Shown here in pieces: positions 12,824-31,106 of a stretch of DNA of 64,000 bases. The position numbers were made by a program, and so were the translations under genes. How positions within the stretch are numbered: the first letter of the stretch is position 1; the number at the start of each line of letters is the position of its first letter. Below the pieces are notes generated by a model. It did no database searches, had not been told where the DNA came from, and saw only the letters and a list, made by a program, of their open reading frames with translations. The stretch is from Stenotrophomonas sp. MMGLT7 (GTDB taxonomy: Bacteria; Pseudomonadota; Gammaproteobacteria; Xanthomonadales; Xanthomonadaceae). The stretch spans positions 124,001 through 188,000 of the forward strand of contig NZ_JAJOZS010000004.1 of NCBI RefSeq assembly GCF_021168555.1. The letters are read 5' to 3'.

Positions 12824-13954
12824 TCACCAGTGCGCGCCCTGCCGGATCGCCGGCATCGCGCGGTAGCGCCACAGCGCCAGCGCGCCGTAGAGCACGGTCA
12901 GCAGCGCCAGCGCGCCCAGCTCGCGCGAGACCTCGGCCAGGCCGGCATCCATCTGGTTGAGCCGCACCATCAGGTTCATGCCCGAGGTGGTCGGCAGCAG
13001 CCGCGCCAGCTCCACCAGCAGCGGCGGCCATGCGTGCGCCGGCCACGACAGCCCGGACAGGAAGAACATCGGGATCGAGGTGGCGATGACGTACTGGAAC
13101 GCACGCTCGCGGGTGGCGAAGAAACTGCCGACGAACAGCCCGAACGCCACCGTGGCGGCGATGAACAACGCCCCGCCCAGCAGCTGCCCGGGCAGGTTGC
13201 CGCCGCGCGGGTAGTCCTGCACCCAGGAGGTGAAGCCGGCGTAGTACAGCAGCCCGCACAGGCCGACCACGCCGAAGCCCAGGGCCATGCCGGCGAGCGT
13301 GGGCAGGTCGAAGTGCAGGCGCCGGCCCAGCGCCTTGCGCCGCGTGCCCAGCAGCACGCCGATGCCCATCAGCAGGGTCTGGTGCACGATCAGCTCGGCC
13401 ACGCCCGGGACGATGGCGCTGCCGTAGCCCTCGCGGGTGTTGAACAGCGGCCGCTGCACCAGTGCGATCGGCGCGGCCTGCGGCGCGCCCATGAACGCGG
13501 CCTGGCGCACCGCCGACTCGCGCGCGAACGCGGTCAGCGCATCGGCGACGCCGCCCAGCACCCAACTCGCGCGTCCCAGGTAGGCGCCGTTGCCCAGCAG
13601 CACCAGCTGCCCGGCGCCGCCGCGCAGGATGTCGCGCTCCAGGTTCGCCGGGATCAGCACGATGCCCTCGGCATGGCCGGCCTCCAGTTCGGCGCGCGCC
13701 TGCGCCAGCGTCCGCGGCTGCCCGGCGATGCGCACCGCGCGCAACGCATCGATGCGCCGCAGCAGTTCGCGGCTGCTGGCGCTGTGGTCCTCGTCGACCA
13801 CCAGCACCGGCAGGTTGCCGGCCACCTGGTGGCGATAGGCGGCCGGATAGAAGAACGAGTACAGCACCACCGCGCCGACCATCACGATCATCGCGTAGCG
13901 GTCGCCGGCGACCGCACGCAGGGTCTGCGCGAAGGCGGCCCCTATCTTCTTCAT
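12824..13954 (-). CDS. ABC-2 type transporter permease (YhhJ/YbhR-like), second of pair
   Basis: 376 aa. There is one N-terminal membrane helix (about 22-42, YAMIVMVGAVVLYSFFYPAAY) and a large periplasmic domain beginning LPVLVVDEDHSASSRELLRRID. A C-terminal bundle of five to six helices follows, including GVGLLGT, GGALFIAATVAFGLFVGSFF and the SIPMFFLSGLSWP motif typical of ABC-2 exporters. It contains no ATPase motifs. It follows its paralogue by 13 bp and is the last gene of a tolC-hlyD-permease-permease operon. Probable role: export of a drug, pigment or lipid with the adjacent adaptor and outer-membrane channel. Confidence 0.9.
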   Translation of the reverse strand: MKKIGAAFAQTLRAVAGDRYAMIVMVGAVVLYSFFYPAAYRHQVAGNLPVLVVDEDHSASSRELLRRIDALRAVRIAGQPRTLAQARAELEAGHAEGIVLIPANLERDILRGGAGQLVLLGNGAYLGRASWVLGGVADALTAFARESAVRQAAFMGAPQAAPIALVQRPLFNTREGYGSAIVPGVAELIVHQTLLMGIGVLLGTRRKALGRRLHFDLPTLAGMALGFGVVGLCGLLYYAGFTSWVQDYPRGGNLPGQLLGGALFIAATVAFGLFVGSFFATRERAFQYVIATSIPMFFLSGLSWPAHAWPPLLVELARLLPTTSGMNLMVRLNQMDAGLAEVSRELGALALLTVLYGALALWRYRAMPAIRQGAHW

Positions 13955-13967
13955 GGCGTCACCGTCT

Positions 13968-15143
13968 TCATCGCGCCGGCGCCGCAGCGGCCGCGACCGC
14001 CGGCGCGCGCGCGGCGGCGATCAGCCGCCAGCCGCCGATGCCGCCGGCGACCACGATCATCAGCGCCAGCGTGCCCAGCGGCCACAGCGACACCGTCCAT
14101 GCCGAGCCGATGAACTGCTGCTGGGTCTGCAGCTTGATGTAGGCGGTCAGCGGCAGCAGCAGGTTCCACACGCGGGTGAACAGCGGCGCGTCGATCACCG
14201 GGAAGGTGGCGCCGGAGAACGCCAGCGCGGTGCCGATGCTCAGGCCCACCGCCGACAGCGCCGTGCCCATGTCGCGGGTGACGCCGACGAACAGCAGCGC
14301 CACCGCGGCGCTGGCCAGGTACAGCAGCGGCTGGCCCAGCATCAGCAGCGCCAGGCTGCCGGCCACGCCGTCGCCGCGCAGGTAGGCCAGGTACAGCACG
14401 CCCAGCGCGCCGTACAGCGAGAACAGCACGATGTATGGCGCCAGCTTGCCGGCGATCGCCGCCCACGGGCGCTGTCCCAGCCAGCCGGCCAGCGTGCCGT
14501 CGCGCAGCTCGCGGCCGAACGCGGACCCGGCCGCCAGTGCCAGTGCCAGCGACAGCAGCGCCGGCAGGATCAGCGGCAGCAGGAACAGCTCGTAGCTGCG
14601 CGCCGGGTTGTAGAGGATGTCCGACTGCACCGTCACCGGTGCCGCGCGCAGCTTGCCCGGGCCGACCTGCTGGCCGATGCGCTCGGCCAGCAGGCGTGCG
14701 TTGAAGGCCGACACCGCATCGGCGATGTCGCGCGCAGCCGACTGCCCGGTGGTCAGGTAGCTGGCGTTGTAGTACGAGAACACCGTGCCCTCGCCGCCGC
14801 GCAGCGCCAGCCGGGTGGCATCGCGCGGCACCAGCACCACCGCGAACACCTGCAGCGAGCGCAGCTGCGACTGCGCCTGCGCCAGCGACGCCGGCTGGCT
14901 GACGATGGCCACGCCGGCACTGGCGTCGATCGTCCGCGCCAGCAGGCGGCTGTCGGCGCTGTTGTCCAGGTCCACCAGCGCGATCGGCACCTGCCGCATC
15001 ACCGAGCCGGAGAACAGCCAGGCCATCGCCAGCATCATCAGCCACGGCAGCACGGTCACCAGCCCCAGGTCGCCGAGGTCGCCGCGCAGGTGGCGCAGCT
15101 CGCGCCGCAGCGAGGCGCAGAAGCCATCGGGCGGGGTTTTCAT
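13968..15143 (-). CDS. ABC-2 type transporter permease, first of pair
   Basis: 391 aa with the same architecture as its neighbour: one helix near 25-45, then a periplasmic domain (VPIALVDLDNSADSRLLARTID). Five to six C-terminal helices follow, with ALSAVGLSIGTALAFSGATFPVID in the ABC-2 signature position. The two permeases would form a heterodimer as in YbhR/YbhS. Its ATG overlaps the stop of the third mini-ORF (ATGA), so its translation is probably coupled to the tandem mini-ORFs upstream. The Ala-rich tail (residues 375-391) is unusual but probably harmless. Confidence 0.9.
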   Translation of the reverse strand: MKTPPDGFCASLRRELRHLRGDLGDLGLVTVLPWLMMLAMAWLFSGSVMRQVPIALVDLDNSADSRLLARTIDASAGVAIVSQPASLAQAQSQLRSLQVFAVVLVPRDATRLALRGGEGTVFSYYNASYLTTGQSAARDIADAVSAFNARLLAERIGQQVGPGKLRAAPVTVQSDILYNPARSYELFLLPLILPALLSLALALAAGSAFGRELRDGTLAGWLGQRPWAAIAGKLAPYIVLFSLYGALGVLYLAYLRGDGVAGSLALLMLGQPLLYLASAAVALLFVGVTRDMGTALSAVGLSIGTALAFSGATFPVIDAPLFTRVWNLLLPLTAYIKLQTQQQFIGSAWTVSLWPLGTLALMIVVAGGIGGWRLIAAARAPAVAAAAAPAR

Positions 15144-15214
15144 GACGCACCTCCATGTGCGTCACCCTGCGGGCGGCTCCGCCGTGAAAAACGGCTGTCC
15201 TGCCGTTTTTTCAT
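15140..15214 (-). CDS. Coupled 24-aa mini-ORF, third copy (nearest permease)
   Basis: ATG at 15214, 24 sense codons, with TGA overlapping the permease ATG (ATGA). The peptide begins MKKRQDSRFSRRSR and ends GDAHGGAS; it is very basic at the N-terminus. The last codons contain GGAGGT six bases before the permease start, so the ORF carries the permease's ribosome-binding site. Codons 2-8 form a perfect hairpin (AAAAACGGC/GCCGTTTTT, 15187-15210). No known family. The repeated, frame-preserving structure supports translation, not the peptide's function. Confidence 0.55.
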   Translation of the reverse strand: MKKRQDSRFSRRSRPQGDAHGGAS

Positions 15215-15285
15215 GACGCACCTCCGTGTGCGCCACCCTGCAGGCCGCTTCGCCGGGGGAAACGGCTGTGCTGCCTTTTTTTCAT
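15211..15285 (-). CDS. Coupled 24-aa mini-ORF, second copy
   Basis: ATG at 15285 overlaps the stop of the first copy, and the stop overlaps the next ATG (ATGA at both ends). The peptide starts MKKRQHSRFPRRSG and ends GAHGGAS, about 80 percent identical to the third copy. GGAGGT precedes the next start by six bases. The hairpin at the start is weaker than in the third copy. No homologue recognised. Confidence 0.55.
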   Translation of the reverse strand: MKKRQHSRFPRRSGLQGGAHGGAS

Positions 15286-15356
15286 GACACACCACCACGT
15301 GCGTCGCCCTGCGGGCCGCCTCGCCGTGGGAAACGGCTGTGCTGCCATTCTTTCAA
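15282..15356 (-). CDS. Coupled 24-aa mini-ORF, first copy (TTG start at hlyD stop)
   Basis: A TTG start at 15356 overlaps the hlyD TGA (GTTGA). The peptide reads (M)KEWQHSRFPRRGG and ends DARGGVS. It is the most divergent unit and the only one without ATG. GGTGG precedes the next ATG. If the TTG is not used, ribosomes could still re-initiate at the next ATG; expression of this copy is less certain than of the others. Confidence 0.4.
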   Translation of the reverse strand: MKEWQHSRFPRRGGPQGDARGGVS

Positions 15357-16375
15357 CCCTGCGGCCATGCGAACAGCACGCTCATGCCCGGGCGGAAGCC
15401 TTCCAGCCGGCGCACCGGCCGCAGCCGCACCTCGAAGCTGCGCACGTCGTAGCCGGACGACTGCCGGGTGCTGCGCCAGGTGGCGTAGTCGCCGGCAGGG
15501 TTGATGAAGTACACCTCGAACTCGGCCTCGCGCTCGGCCAGCGCCGGCACGCTGCCGCGCAGGCGGCTGCCGACCTTCAGGCCGTCGACCTGGTCCTCGC
15601 GCAGGTTGACCGACACCCACATGCGGTCGATGTCCACCAGGGTGAACACCGGATAGCCGGCCGGCACCAGCTCGCCGACGTCGGCCATGCGCTTGTTGAT
15701 CTCGCCGGCCAGCGGCGCCCGGCCCAGGGTTTCCTCGCGCGCGGCATCGACCTCGGCCACCGCGCCCTCGGCCTGGCGCACCTGCGCCTGCGCCGCGTCC
15801 TTGTCCTGCGCGCGGGCGCCGGCCAGCGCCTGGTCGTACTGCGCGCGCGCCGCGCGCGCCAGTTCGGTGGAACTGCGCGACTGCGCCAGCGCCTCGTCGC
15901 GCTTCTGCCGGGTGACCACGCCCTCGTTGAACAGGTTGTCCACGCGCCGGTAGGTGCTCTGCGCCAGCTCGGCGCCGGCCACGGCACGTTTCCAGTTGGC
16001 CTCGGCGGCGCGGATGTCCTCGCTGCGCGCGCCTTCCTCGGCCTTGGCGGCCACCGCCCTGGCCGCATCCAGCGCTGCGTGCGCCTGGCGTTCCTTGGCC
16101 GCGACCTCGGGGCTGTCCAGCTCGAACAGCGCCTGCCCGGCCTGCACCCGGTCGCCCTCGTGCACCAGCAGCCGGGACACCCGCGCGGTCACCTTGGCGG
16201 CGACGTTGACGTTGTCGGCATCGGCCATGCCCTGTACCTGCCCGGCCGGGGTGCGGAAGCCCAGCCACAGGCCCAGCGCCACCAGCACGATCGCCGCCAG
16301 CAGCAGCGCGATGCGCTTGCCGCGCCCGGACCGGCGCGCGTCCCTTTGCTCTCGCGCAAGCAGCGAGTCACTCAT
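15353..16375 (-). CDS. HlyD/EmrA-family periplasmic adaptor (membrane fusion protein)
   Basis: 340 aa from ATG 16375, which overlaps the tolC stop by 8 bases. One membrane helix (about 20-40, IALLLAAIVLVALGLWLGF) is followed by a split biotinyl-lipoyl domain (NVNVAAKVTARVSRLLVHEGDRVQAGQALFELD). Then come a long alpha-hairpin of about 120 residues rich in Ala/Glu/Arg and a beta-barrel with EINKRMADVGELVPAGYPVFTLVDIDRMWV. Adaptors of this type connect ABC-2 exporters to TolC. The last residues, Pro-Gln-Gly, are echoed in each downstream 71-bp repeat. Confidence 0.93.
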   Translation of the reverse strand: MSDSLLAREQRDARRSGRGKRIALLLAAIVLVALGLWLGFRTPAGQVQGMADADNVNVAAKVTARVSRLLVHEGDRVQAGQALFELDSPEVAAKERQAHAALDAARAVAAKAEEGARSEDIRAAEANWKRAVAGAELAQSTYRRVDNLFNEGVVTRQKRDEALAQSRSSTELARAARAQYDQALAGARAQDKDAAQAQVRQAEGAVAEVDAAREETLGRAPLAGEINKRMADVGELVPAGYPVFTLVDIDRMWVSVNLREDQVDGLKVGSRLRGSVPALAEREAEFEVYFINPAGDYATWRSTRQSSGYDVRSFEVRLRPVRRLEGFRPGMSVLFAWPQG

Positions 16376-17804
16376 ATGCCAGCACCTTGTCCGCGCGCAG
16401 GCGGAATTCGTCGAATCGGTCCATCTGTCCACTCATCTCCAGCAGTTGCGCCAGCGCCACGTCGTACTGGTAGGCCGCCTGCGCGCGCTCGATGCGCGCC
16501 CCGCCCAGCGCCAGCCGCGCGTCGATCACGTCCAGCGAGGTCGCCTGGCCCTCGCGGAAGGACAGTTCCTGCAGCCGCAGGTTCTCCTCGGCCTGGGCGA
16601 TGGAACTGTCGAGCAGGCCGAACTGCCGGCGCGCGGTGTCCAGTTCGTTCCACGCACGGCGCACGCCCAGCGCCACCTGGTTCTCGGCCTCGCCGATGCC
16701 GGCCTGCGCCTGGTCCAGCTGCGCGCGCGCGGCGCTGAGCTGCAGCGGCCGCATGCTCGGCGACAGGAAGGTGTAGCGCAGGCCGATGCCGAAGGCCCAG
16801 TCGGGATCGGCGATCAGCTCGTCGCGGCGGCGGAAGTCGTACTGGCCGAACAGGTAGACCTGCGGCTTGAACTTGGCCTGCTGCACGCGCACGCCCTGCT
16901 CGGCCTGCGCCGCCATTGCGCGCAGCTTCTCGATCTGCGGATGCCGGCCCAGTGCCGCCTGCTCGAACTCGGCCTGGCTGCCGACCGGCGCGGTGGCGAC
17001 GAACAGCGGGGTCAGCGCCTGCACCTCGCCACCGCTGCGCAGCAGCGTGGACAGCGCCGACTGCAGCGTGGACAGGTCGTTGAGCGCCTTCTGGTAGTCG
17101 CGCTCGGCCTTGTCGCGCGCCACCGTGGCCTGCAGCCGCTGGGCGCGGGTGGCGAAGCCCTCGCGCTCCAGCTTGCCGGCATCGTCCAGGTGCCGCTGCA
17201 GGCCGTCGCGCACCTCGCGCCGCACCTGCAGCGCCTGCTCGGCCAGCTGCTGGCCGAAATAGGCCTGCACCAGCTGCACCGCCAGCGATTGCCGCTGCGA
17301 CTCGCGCTCGGCGCTGGCCTGGCGGGTGGCGGCCTCGGCCGCGCCCTGGGCGGCGGGGATCAGCCCGCCGGTGTACAGCGGCAGGGTCGCGGTCACCACC
17401 GGTCGCGTGCGCCAGTCGCGCTCGATGAACTCCAGCGGCGACTCGATGCCGAACGCCTCGGCCACCGGTGCCAGCGAGCCCAGCGGGATGGTCAGCGTCT
17501 TCTGGAACTGCAGCCGCCGCACTTCGCCGGTGATCTCCGGCAGGCGCAGGTAGCGGGTGGCGTCCTGCAGGTCCTGCTTGTTGCGCACCCCGGCGTCGGC
17601 CGCGGCCAGCGCGTCGGACACCTGCTGCAGGCGCTCGCTGGCCTGCGCGTAGGTCAGCGCGGGAAGCTGCTGCGCCGGCGCCTGGCCGGTCGCCAGCAGC
17701 AGCGACAGCGCCGTTGCGGCGGCCCGCCGCTTCCACGACCGGCCCGCGGACCGCACCAGCACCCCATGTCTCGACCGCACGATGTTCCCTCGGGAAAACT
17801 CCAT
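16368..17804 (-). CDS. TolC-family outer-membrane efflux protein
   Basis: 478 aa from ATG 17804. A GTG at 17780 with AGGGA five bases upstream is an equally good start and gives a shorter signal peptide; both end near APAQ. Two OEP repeats are visible: the first (about 60-250) has the NKQDLQDATRYLRLPEITGEV and YFGQQLAEQALQVRREV helices, the second (about 270-470) has VALGVRRAWNELDTARRQ and the ATSLDVIDARLALGGARIE block typical of the family. It should form the outer-membrane exit duct for the HlyD/ABC-2 pump encoded immediately downstream. First gene of the operon. Confidence 0.93.
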   Translation of the reverse strand: MEFSRGNIVRSRHGVLVRSAGRSWKRRAAATALSLLLATGQAPAQQLPALTYAQASERLQQVSDALAAADAGVRNKQDLQDATRYLRLPEITGEVRRLQFQKTLTIPLGSLAPVAEAFGIESPLEFIERDWRTRPVVTATLPLYTGGLIPAAQGAAEAATRQASAERESQRQSLAVQLVQAYFGQQLAEQALQVRREVRDGLQRHLDDAGKLEREGFATRAQRLQATVARDKAERDYQKALNDLSTLQSALSTLLRSGGEVQALTPLFVATAPVGSQAEFEQAALGRHPQIEKLRAMAAQAEQGVRVQQAKFKPQVYLFGQYDFRRRDELIADPDWAFGIGLRYTFLSPSMRPLQLSAARAQLDQAQAGIGEAENQVALGVRRAWNELDTARRQFGLLDSSIAQAEENLRLQELSFREGQATSLDVIDARLALGGARIERAQAAYQYDVALAQLLEMSGQMDRFDEFRLRADKVLAYE

Positions 17805-30349: not shown

Positions 30350-31106
30350 GCCCCCTTCTCCCGCTTGCGGGGCTGGGCACCCTCGGGGTGGAAGGTGCCC
30401 GAAGGGCGGATGGGGGTTGCCGGGAGCATTGGGAAAGCCACCGCAGAAGCGCCCTCATCCGGCGCTGCGCGCCACCTTCTCCCGTGAACGGGAGAAGGAA
30501 GCTTCGCAGCGATTCCAGATGACCGACCGCTGTTCCCTTCTCCCGCTTGCGGGGCTGGGCACCCTCGGGGTGGAAGGTGCCCGAAGGGCGGATGGGGGTT
30601 GCCTGGAGCATGGGAGAGCCACCGCAGAAGCGCCCTCATCCGGCGCTGCGCGCCACCTTCTCCCGTGAACGGGAGAAGGGAAGCTTCGCGGCGATTCCAG
30701 ATGACCGACCGCTGTTCCCTTCTCCCGCTTGCGGGGCTGGGCACCCTCGGGGTGGAAGGTGCCCGGAGGGCGGATGGGGGCTGCCTGGAGCATGGGAAAG
30801 CCGCCGCAGAAGCCCCCTCATCCGGAGAAGCGCCCTCATCCGGCGCTGCGCGCCACCTTCTCCCGTGAACGGGAGAAGGAAGCTTCGCGGCGATTCCAGA
30901 TGAGCGCTGTTCCCTTCTCCCGCTTGCGGGGGAAGGTGCCCGAAGGGCGGATGGGGGGCTGCCGGGAGCATTGGGAAAGCCGCCGCAGAAGCCCCCTCAT
31001 CCGGCGCTGCGCGCCACCTTCTCCCGTGAACGGGAGAAGGGAGCTTCGCGGCGATTCCGGATGGCCGACCGCTGTTCCCTTCTCCCGCTTGCGGGAGAAG
31101 GGAGCC
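30350..31106. repeat. Tandem array of family C intergenic repeat, about 4.5 copies
   Basis: Units start at about 30353, 30534, 30716, 30911 and (partial) 31076, with periods of 181, 182, 195 and 165 bases. Each runs from cttctcccgcttgcgg through ggtgcccgaagggcggatgggg, gccaccttctcccgtgaacg to gattccagatgaccgaccgc. Copies are more than 90 percent identical apart from a short internal duplication in the third and a deletion in the fourth. Each unit holds two ggagaag/cttctcc hairpins. No gene is recognised in 30290-31162; this fills the gap between convergent genes. Confidence 0.92.

Follow-up and report, generated by a model that had tools for sequence, protein, structure and literature searches.

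Tandem copies of a dispersed three-hairpin repeat element between hlyD and an ABC permease gene of Stenotrophomonas

In Stenotrophomonas sp. MMGLT7, three mini-ORFs that link an hlyD gene to an ABC permease gene are tandem copies of a dispersed repeat element of ~71 nt with three hairpins. The element has a covarying structure, orthologous junctions exist without it, and the continuity of the reading frame is conserved where it lies at gene junctions. In the reading that we favour, to which we give a probability of roughly 0.78, this repeat would have been inserted at the hlyD/permease overlap and multiplied in tandem, and would pass the ribosome on to the permease, with RsmA lowering re-initiation.

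The hlyD/permease junction and the repeat element

The window, i.e. the whole stretch of 64,000 nucleotides that was analysed (contig NZ_JAJOZS010000004.1, positions 124,001 to 188,000), carries the junction on its minus strand (Table 1). An initial annotation had described three 71-bp copies, each a 24-codon ORF, chained by overlapping stop and start codons and provided with Shine-Dalgarno sequences. This observation, at 15356-15140, is confirmed in every detail by TRF and by the ORF coordinates. The three units are arranged head-to-tail and fill the interval exactly, with a TRF period of 71, 3.1 copies and 85% matches without indels. The TGA of hlyD (15355-15353) overlaps the TTG at 15356 that starts the first mini-ORF; the other two start with ATG at 15285 and 15214, and each mini-ORF TGA overlaps the following ATG, the final overlap providing the ATG of the permease at 15143. 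The Shine-Dalgarno sequence reads GGTGG in unit 1 and GGAGGTG in units 2 and 3. The locus thus presents a series of overlapping stop and start codons, as in a translationally coupled gene chain. Pairwise, the units differ at 10-13 of 75 positions, and it is true, as had been remarked, that these substitutions leave all frames open. Open frames alone are, however, unremarkable because 80% of the 24-codon frames on the minus strand of the window are free of stops, and we rejected them as significant by themselves. The real signal is the exact overlap chain together with its recurrence at other loci. No other 71-nt mini-ORF running from overlap to overlap exists on the minus strand of the window, and in an unfiltered covariance-model scan of the window the three units score 102, 64 and 50 bits, the next best match scoring 18 bits.

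Table 1 Features of the hlyD/permease junction (window coordinates)
Feature	Position	Strand	Evidence or remark
HlyD-type membrane-fusion adaptor gene, upstream of the junction	15353..16432	-	HlyD_D23 5.8e-20; start codon uncertain
Unit 1, mini-ORF LKEWQHSRFPRRGGPQGDARGGVS, TTG start	15282..15356	-	63.8 bits
Unit 2, mini-ORF MKKRQHSRFPRRSGLQGGAHGGAS, hairpin-3 loop ACGGAG	15211..15285	-	model scan
Unit 3, mini-ORF MKKRQDSRFSRRSRPQGDAHGGAS, complete element, both GGA loops intact	15140..15214	-	101.8 bits
Unit 3 hairpin 1, loop AGGACA (CsrB-like CAGGAC)	15187..15210	-	
Unit 3 hairpin 2, CGGC-GGA-GCCG (GNA triloop)	15174..15184	-	
Unit 3 CCCGCAGGG mini-hairpin; family form CCCGNAGGG	15165..15173	-	
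Unit 3 hairpin 3, TGACGCAC-ATGGAG-GTGCGTCA	15143..15164	-	
ABC-2 type permease, downstream of the junction	13968..15143	-	ABC2_membrane_3 9.6e-42
Second ABC-2 permease, same operon	12824..13954	-	family search

The fold was assessed on 13 aligned units, in which the three hairpins show standard pairs in 93.8% of cells, as against 28-45% when the partner is slid. Both sides have changed in 13 of the 21 pairs, the covariation was equalled by none of 500 shuffles, and it was seen again on 150 copies in an alignment fitted by the model itself. In unit 3, loop and stem of hairpin 3 contain the Shine-Dalgarno sequence of the permease, whose ATG contributes its A as the final paired base of the conserved stem. 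Both GGA loop motifs have decayed in unit 1 (loops AGCACA and GTGGTG), and unit 2 has lost one of its two.

Including the window locus, the unit occurs at three loci of its own genome. At one of the other two (L002), two copies between ftsL and ftsI form one fused in-frame ORF of 49 codons with an ATGA overlap at each end; at the other (L003), a single copy separates a terminator hairpin from the stop codon of a different gene. Beyond this genome, the covariance model finds the element in 215 of 397 Xanthomonadaceae genomes, representing 38 of 54 genera, and, at E <= 1e-5 (these E-values being rough), more diverged copies in 70 of 321 sampled Gammaproteobacteria genomes; the best scores outside Xanthomonadaceae exceed 80 bits. 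Copy numbers per genome are lower bounds, with 12-15 candidates scored in each. Tandem multiplication is common across genomes, and periods of 69 and 72 nt, which fuse copies in frame, also occur. The three-hairpin fold with its GGA loops, the dispersal and these in-frame periods go beyond what the initial annotation had noticed.

No match was found by a Rfam search at the window locus, nor by a plasmid and phage search with the mini-ORF peptide, and with that peptide no Pfam or NCBIfam family rose above cut-off. A full-text literature search by unit sequence, peptide, Xanthomonadaceae palindromic repeats and RtT, in a collection with few subscription journals, turned up no account of the element. 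As a separate observation, 4-7 fused copies at the operon junctions of L050, L059 and L045 give would-be repetitive basic proteins of ~96-170 residues.

Insertion settings and continuity of the frame at junctions

Inspection of ~100 loci revealed four settings. Firstly, the element lies at co-directional gene junctions in the arrangement ATGA-unit-ATGA (setting A), examples being ftsL/ftsI, GNAT/epmA-like, hlyD/permease and junctions that precede a PepSY-type gene or an ABC permease gene, among others. Secondly, it lies between a stop codon and a terminator (setting B). Thirdly, it is found within the common CCTTCTCCC...GGTGCCCGAAGGGCGGATGAGGG repeat (setting C) and, fourthly, inside T-loops that belong to tRNA-like remnants next to tRNA genes, where the sequence reads GGTTCGA[unit]GAATCCC (setting D). 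There is also a gammaproteobacterial in-frame copy (L168, ~1501-1576) inside a prmA-like ORF, to which it adds 24 residues. The names GNAT, epmA, PepSY, ftsL and prmA were read from translations rather than from a family search. In other Gammaproteobacteria, copies occur beside or inside ORFs resembling serine or tyrosine recombinases (L169, L170, L172 and L173), for which a link to mobility is possible. The window itself holds, at 30353-31095, a 182-bp tandem array with 4.1 copies of the CCCTTCTCCC...GGTGCCCGAAGGGCGGATG repeat that is common in Xanthomonadaceae; in other genomes, this repeat is the host of the setting-C copies.

Empty sites were found at two of these junctions. At the ftsL/ftsI junction of genome G030 (L129), the sequence GTGCGCCC-ATGA-AGGCC equals that of the MMGLT7 genome minus its two units, and a direct ftsL/ftsI overlap with the unit absent is also seen in X. 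albilineans, X. bonasiae, X. massiliensis, S. maltophilia and Pseudoxanthomonas. The hlyD/permease junctions of the closest relatives, which belong to related genera (L158-L162; permeases 84%, 74% and 66% identical), contain no unit; the hlyD stop, in the form CTGA, is immediately followed by the permease. Therefore, the units are insertions at a stop/start overlap. From the sampled sequences, the insertion next to hlyD would most simply have followed the split from the nearest sampled genus. GA, or NTGA, borders copies on either side, and the empty sites read ATGA, present once, at ftsL/ftsI and CTGA at hlyD; a target-site duplication and an element that brings its own GA would fit these flanks equally well. 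The G030 permease homologue at L162 contains an in-frame TGA, a possible pseudogene or assembly error.

We then compared the chain of ORFs that leads from the upstream overlap to the downstream ATG, either as one ORF or as a series of overlapping ORFs, between junction and non-junction copies. It is intact at 11 of 11 independent junctions, with the mutually related ftsL/ftsI rows counted once, and in 9 of 22 non-junction copies (Fisher p = 0.0016); the two groups were told apart with an ORF and GC3 heuristic and by inspection by eye, and the junctions are few. Frameshifted or stop-containing copies at the rate of neutral repeats, which would have spoken against the chain, are thus not what the junctions contain. 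In Xanthomonas and relatives, the ftsL/ftsI inserts range from 56 to 359 nt and come in 17 different lengths, each of which is 2 mod 3. They hold 1-5 recognisable units, which repeat at intervals of, for instance, 69 or 72 nt, and all of the inserts finish at the ATG of ftsI. The proposal that a period equal to ORF length minus the 4-nt overlap lets copy number change while coupling is preserved is borne out by these lengths. In X. vasicola, X. cannabis, X. cissicola and X. floridensis, short decayed inserts no longer resemble a full unit and nonetheless retain both overlaps and the frame. Likewise, L015, L016, L085 and L111 retain the chain despite units that are partly in other frames or heavily altered, L111 showing an intact chain of 49 codons when followed further upstream. 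Together, the intact chains at 11 of 11 against 9 of 22 copies and the uniform 2 mod 3 lengths indicate that continuity of translation is under selection, and the retention of the chain by altered units and by units read in other frames indicates that this continuity counts more than the peptide.

Substitutions by codon position number 34/17/46 in junction units and 53/43/40 in non-junction units (chi-square p = 0.008, from a test that pools ftsL/ftsI with other loci and ignores kinship). In junction units, position 2 is thus the least changed and position 3 the most, and there may be amino-acid constraint at junctions in general. Among the three hlyD copies, no codon-position bias was found (4/4/4, 7/2/4 and 4/2/4).

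Proposed mechanism and alternative readings

Coupling by termination and re-initiation at ATGA overlaps is established (PMC6728339). In the favoured reading, the element would have landed where the hlyD stop overlapped the permease start and then multiplied in tandem. A ribosome would terminate at TGA, restart at the overlapping ATG and repeat this until the downstream gene is reached, so that the chain of mini-ORFs would be translated; since the element spans ATGA to ATGA in a single open frame, the ribosome would be handed on at a coupled pair. Hairpin 3 holds the Shine-Dalgarno sequence and pairs into the next AUG, and the downstream gene should consequently need ribosomes that arrive from the mini-ORF. 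A ribosome completing the mini-ORF would melt hairpin 3 and restart at the overlapping AUG, and hairpin 3 would thereby enforce the coupling of the permease to the mini-ORF. RsmA (CsrA), predicted to bind both GGA hexaloops, would lower this re-initiation. The translational relay proposed in the initial annotation stands in so far as continuity of translation is selected; a system specific to the pump finds no support, as orthologous junctions are free of units and the unit lies between unrelated genes.

CsrA recognises ANGGAN in hexaloops, the repeats of CsrB read CAGGA(U/A/C)G and the SELEX consensus is RUACARGGAUGU; the protein can bridge sites over 10-63 nt and represses iraD through the coupled short ORF idlP (PMC7652899). 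GGA is placed in hexaloops, one of them over the Shine-Dalgarno sequence, as in CsrA/RsmA targets, in hairpin 3 of units 2 and 3 and in hairpin 1 of unit 3, and the two GGA motifs of unit 3 are ~43 nt apart. The element might, on this evidence from motifs, be kept mainly as a portable operator, with hairpins 1 and 3 as RsmA-binding sites; the downstream gene would come under Csr control, and the mini-ORF would be a by-product that permits location inside operons. We regard this as a serious contender at somewhat less than even odds. The hairpin-1 loop AGGANN and the hairpin-3 loop ANGGAN match the binding consensus, some copies contain the exact SELEX core ACARGGAUGU, and the MMGLT7 genome encodes CsrA. 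Among 43 copies from settings C and D, which are untranslated, 40 have AGGA and 39 the hairpin-3 GGA, while none has GGA in the GNA loop of hairpin 2. Stems also contain more G-U than A-C combinations (85 versus 46). On the other hand, long stable stems are described as disadvantageous for CsrA (PMC7652899), unit 1 lacks both GGA loops and unit 2 lacks one, and the GGA of hairpin 3 may be retained merely as a Shine-Dalgarno sequence. Loop conservation in scattered copies could, moreover, be a legacy of the active copies from which they descend or be due to a mobilising enzyme that recognises the loops. Binding of RsmA to the units is predicted from a strong motif match, and the loops could serve mobilisation instead.

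A purely selfish hairpin repeat has a comparable claim, which we would also place a little short of an even chance. The GGA and GNA loops would then be recognition features for a putative mobilising enzyme, and the open frame would be the signature of survivors because broken chains would silence downstream genes. The very different hosts (3’ ends before terminators, another repeat, tRNA T-loops and the prmA-like ORF) and the frequent tandem multiplication agree with such a repeat, as does the fact that GCGNAGC-type hairpins are very stable DNA hairpins. However, neither the two overlaps nor the frame have been lost over many species in the short decayed ftsL/ftsI inserts, so that junction copies are at least maintained, and a selfish repeat leaves the excess of G-U over A-C unexplained.

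The initial annotation had also considered a basic peptide, encoded by the mini-ORFs and active in the pump. The mini-ORF product is indeed basic (KKRQDSRFSRRSRPQG), there is the codon-position bias at junctions overall, and the ORF tpr of E. coli rttR is comparably basic. Against this, the peptide differs between copies, units at several junctions are read in other frames, the three hlyD copies lack codon bias and the peptide belongs to no Pfam or NCBIfam family. Orthologous pumps lack the unit, which also lies beside unrelated genes. We consider such a function highly improbable, and a conserved pump peptide was rejected on the empty orthologous junctions and the frame switching. Finally, ordinary local tandem duplication of a junction fragment without wider meaning, although tandem duplication is clear at hlyD/permease and ftsL/ftsI, is refuted by copies at unrelated loci of a unit that is dispersed, structured and covarying in many genera, and retains next to no credibility.

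Returning to the coupled insertion that we favour, tiny repeats can enter the tightest spot of an operon, the 4-nt stop/start overlap, and leave translation unbroken because the repeat spans stop/start to stop/start in one frame. This is a route for mobile DNA to add short extra cistrons to operons, the cell-division pair ftsL/ftsI of Xanthomonas included. If the GGA hairpins bind RsmA, a single step could bring genes into a global regulon or release them from it, and the element could be relevant to RtT/tpr, an obscure repeat found in tRNA operons of E. coli. A wider proposal, that a mobile gammaproteobacterial hairpin family supplies both coupling adapters and RsmA operators, joining downstream genes, ftsI of Xanthomonas among them, to the Csr/Rsm network with a strength set by copy number, and that RtT-like tRNA-processed relatives act as RsmA sponges, is speculative and on balance unlikely.

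Comparison with known repeats and coupled ORFs

The element fits a kind already known, the small palindromic mobile repeats, and by behaviour its nearest kinds are Rickettsia palindromic elements and MITEs (PMC10969869). Rickettsia palindromic elements are, like the L168 copy, small hairpin-rich repeats inserted in coding DNA with frames left open; by description, they are ~150 bp long, rickettsial and located inside ORFs (PMC10969869), whereas the present element is ~71 nt long, gammaproteobacterial and often placed exactly at gene junctions. Like MITEs, REP and ERIC-type repeats (for example Chunjie, inserted in an operon), it is short, dispersed and present or absent at the same site. Unlike them, it carries its own start-to-stop frame. 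The terminal inverted repeats of MITEs are absent, the ends being two different hairpins, hairpin 1 and hairpin 3; the GTAG tetranucleotide of REP is absent from the ends of the aligned units, and copies lie inside stop/start overlaps rather than being extragenic.

With regard to coupling, in the E. coli idlP-iraD pair, too, translation of the downstream gene is coupled to that of a short ORF bearing CsrA-type sites (PMC7652899), but idlP is a single fixed leader ORF while the element is a dispersed repeat for which CsrA binding is predicted. The element uses the standard 4-nt ATGA overlap of termination-reinitiation (PMC6728339) and differs from plain ATGA coupling in that extra mini-cistrons sit in series inside one overlap.

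The tRNA-linked relatives resemble RtT RNA (Rfam RF00391). They share with it a tRNA-like remnant and an insert between TTCGA and AATCC, and the layout of GNA-loop hairpins, CCCGAAGGG and a GAGT(G)AATCC end is also common to both. They score 29-37 bits against RF00391 (best 36.9), under its gathering score of 45, and RF00391 has no match at the window unit (L001). Conversely, the unit model gave no significant match on the E. coli rttR region (3 bits). RtT sits in a tRNA operon within a remnant of the tRNA 3’ end, a location shared by the tRNA-linked relatives alone, whereas the window unit has hlyD and a permease gene as its neighbours, and we know of no RtT at the stop/start overlap of an operon. 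The insert of E. coli rttR lacks GGA hexaloops, unlike the element, and has the same order of parts as the tRNA-linked relatives; its protamine-like ORF tpr reads RRQRPEG where units of the element read RRSRPQG. At L020, L021, L024, L025, L100, L109, L112 and L123, tandem tRNA-like remnants follow tRNA genes with the element replacing the T-loop, and these RtT-related loci may yield tRNA-processed small RNAs that carry two GGA hexaloops.
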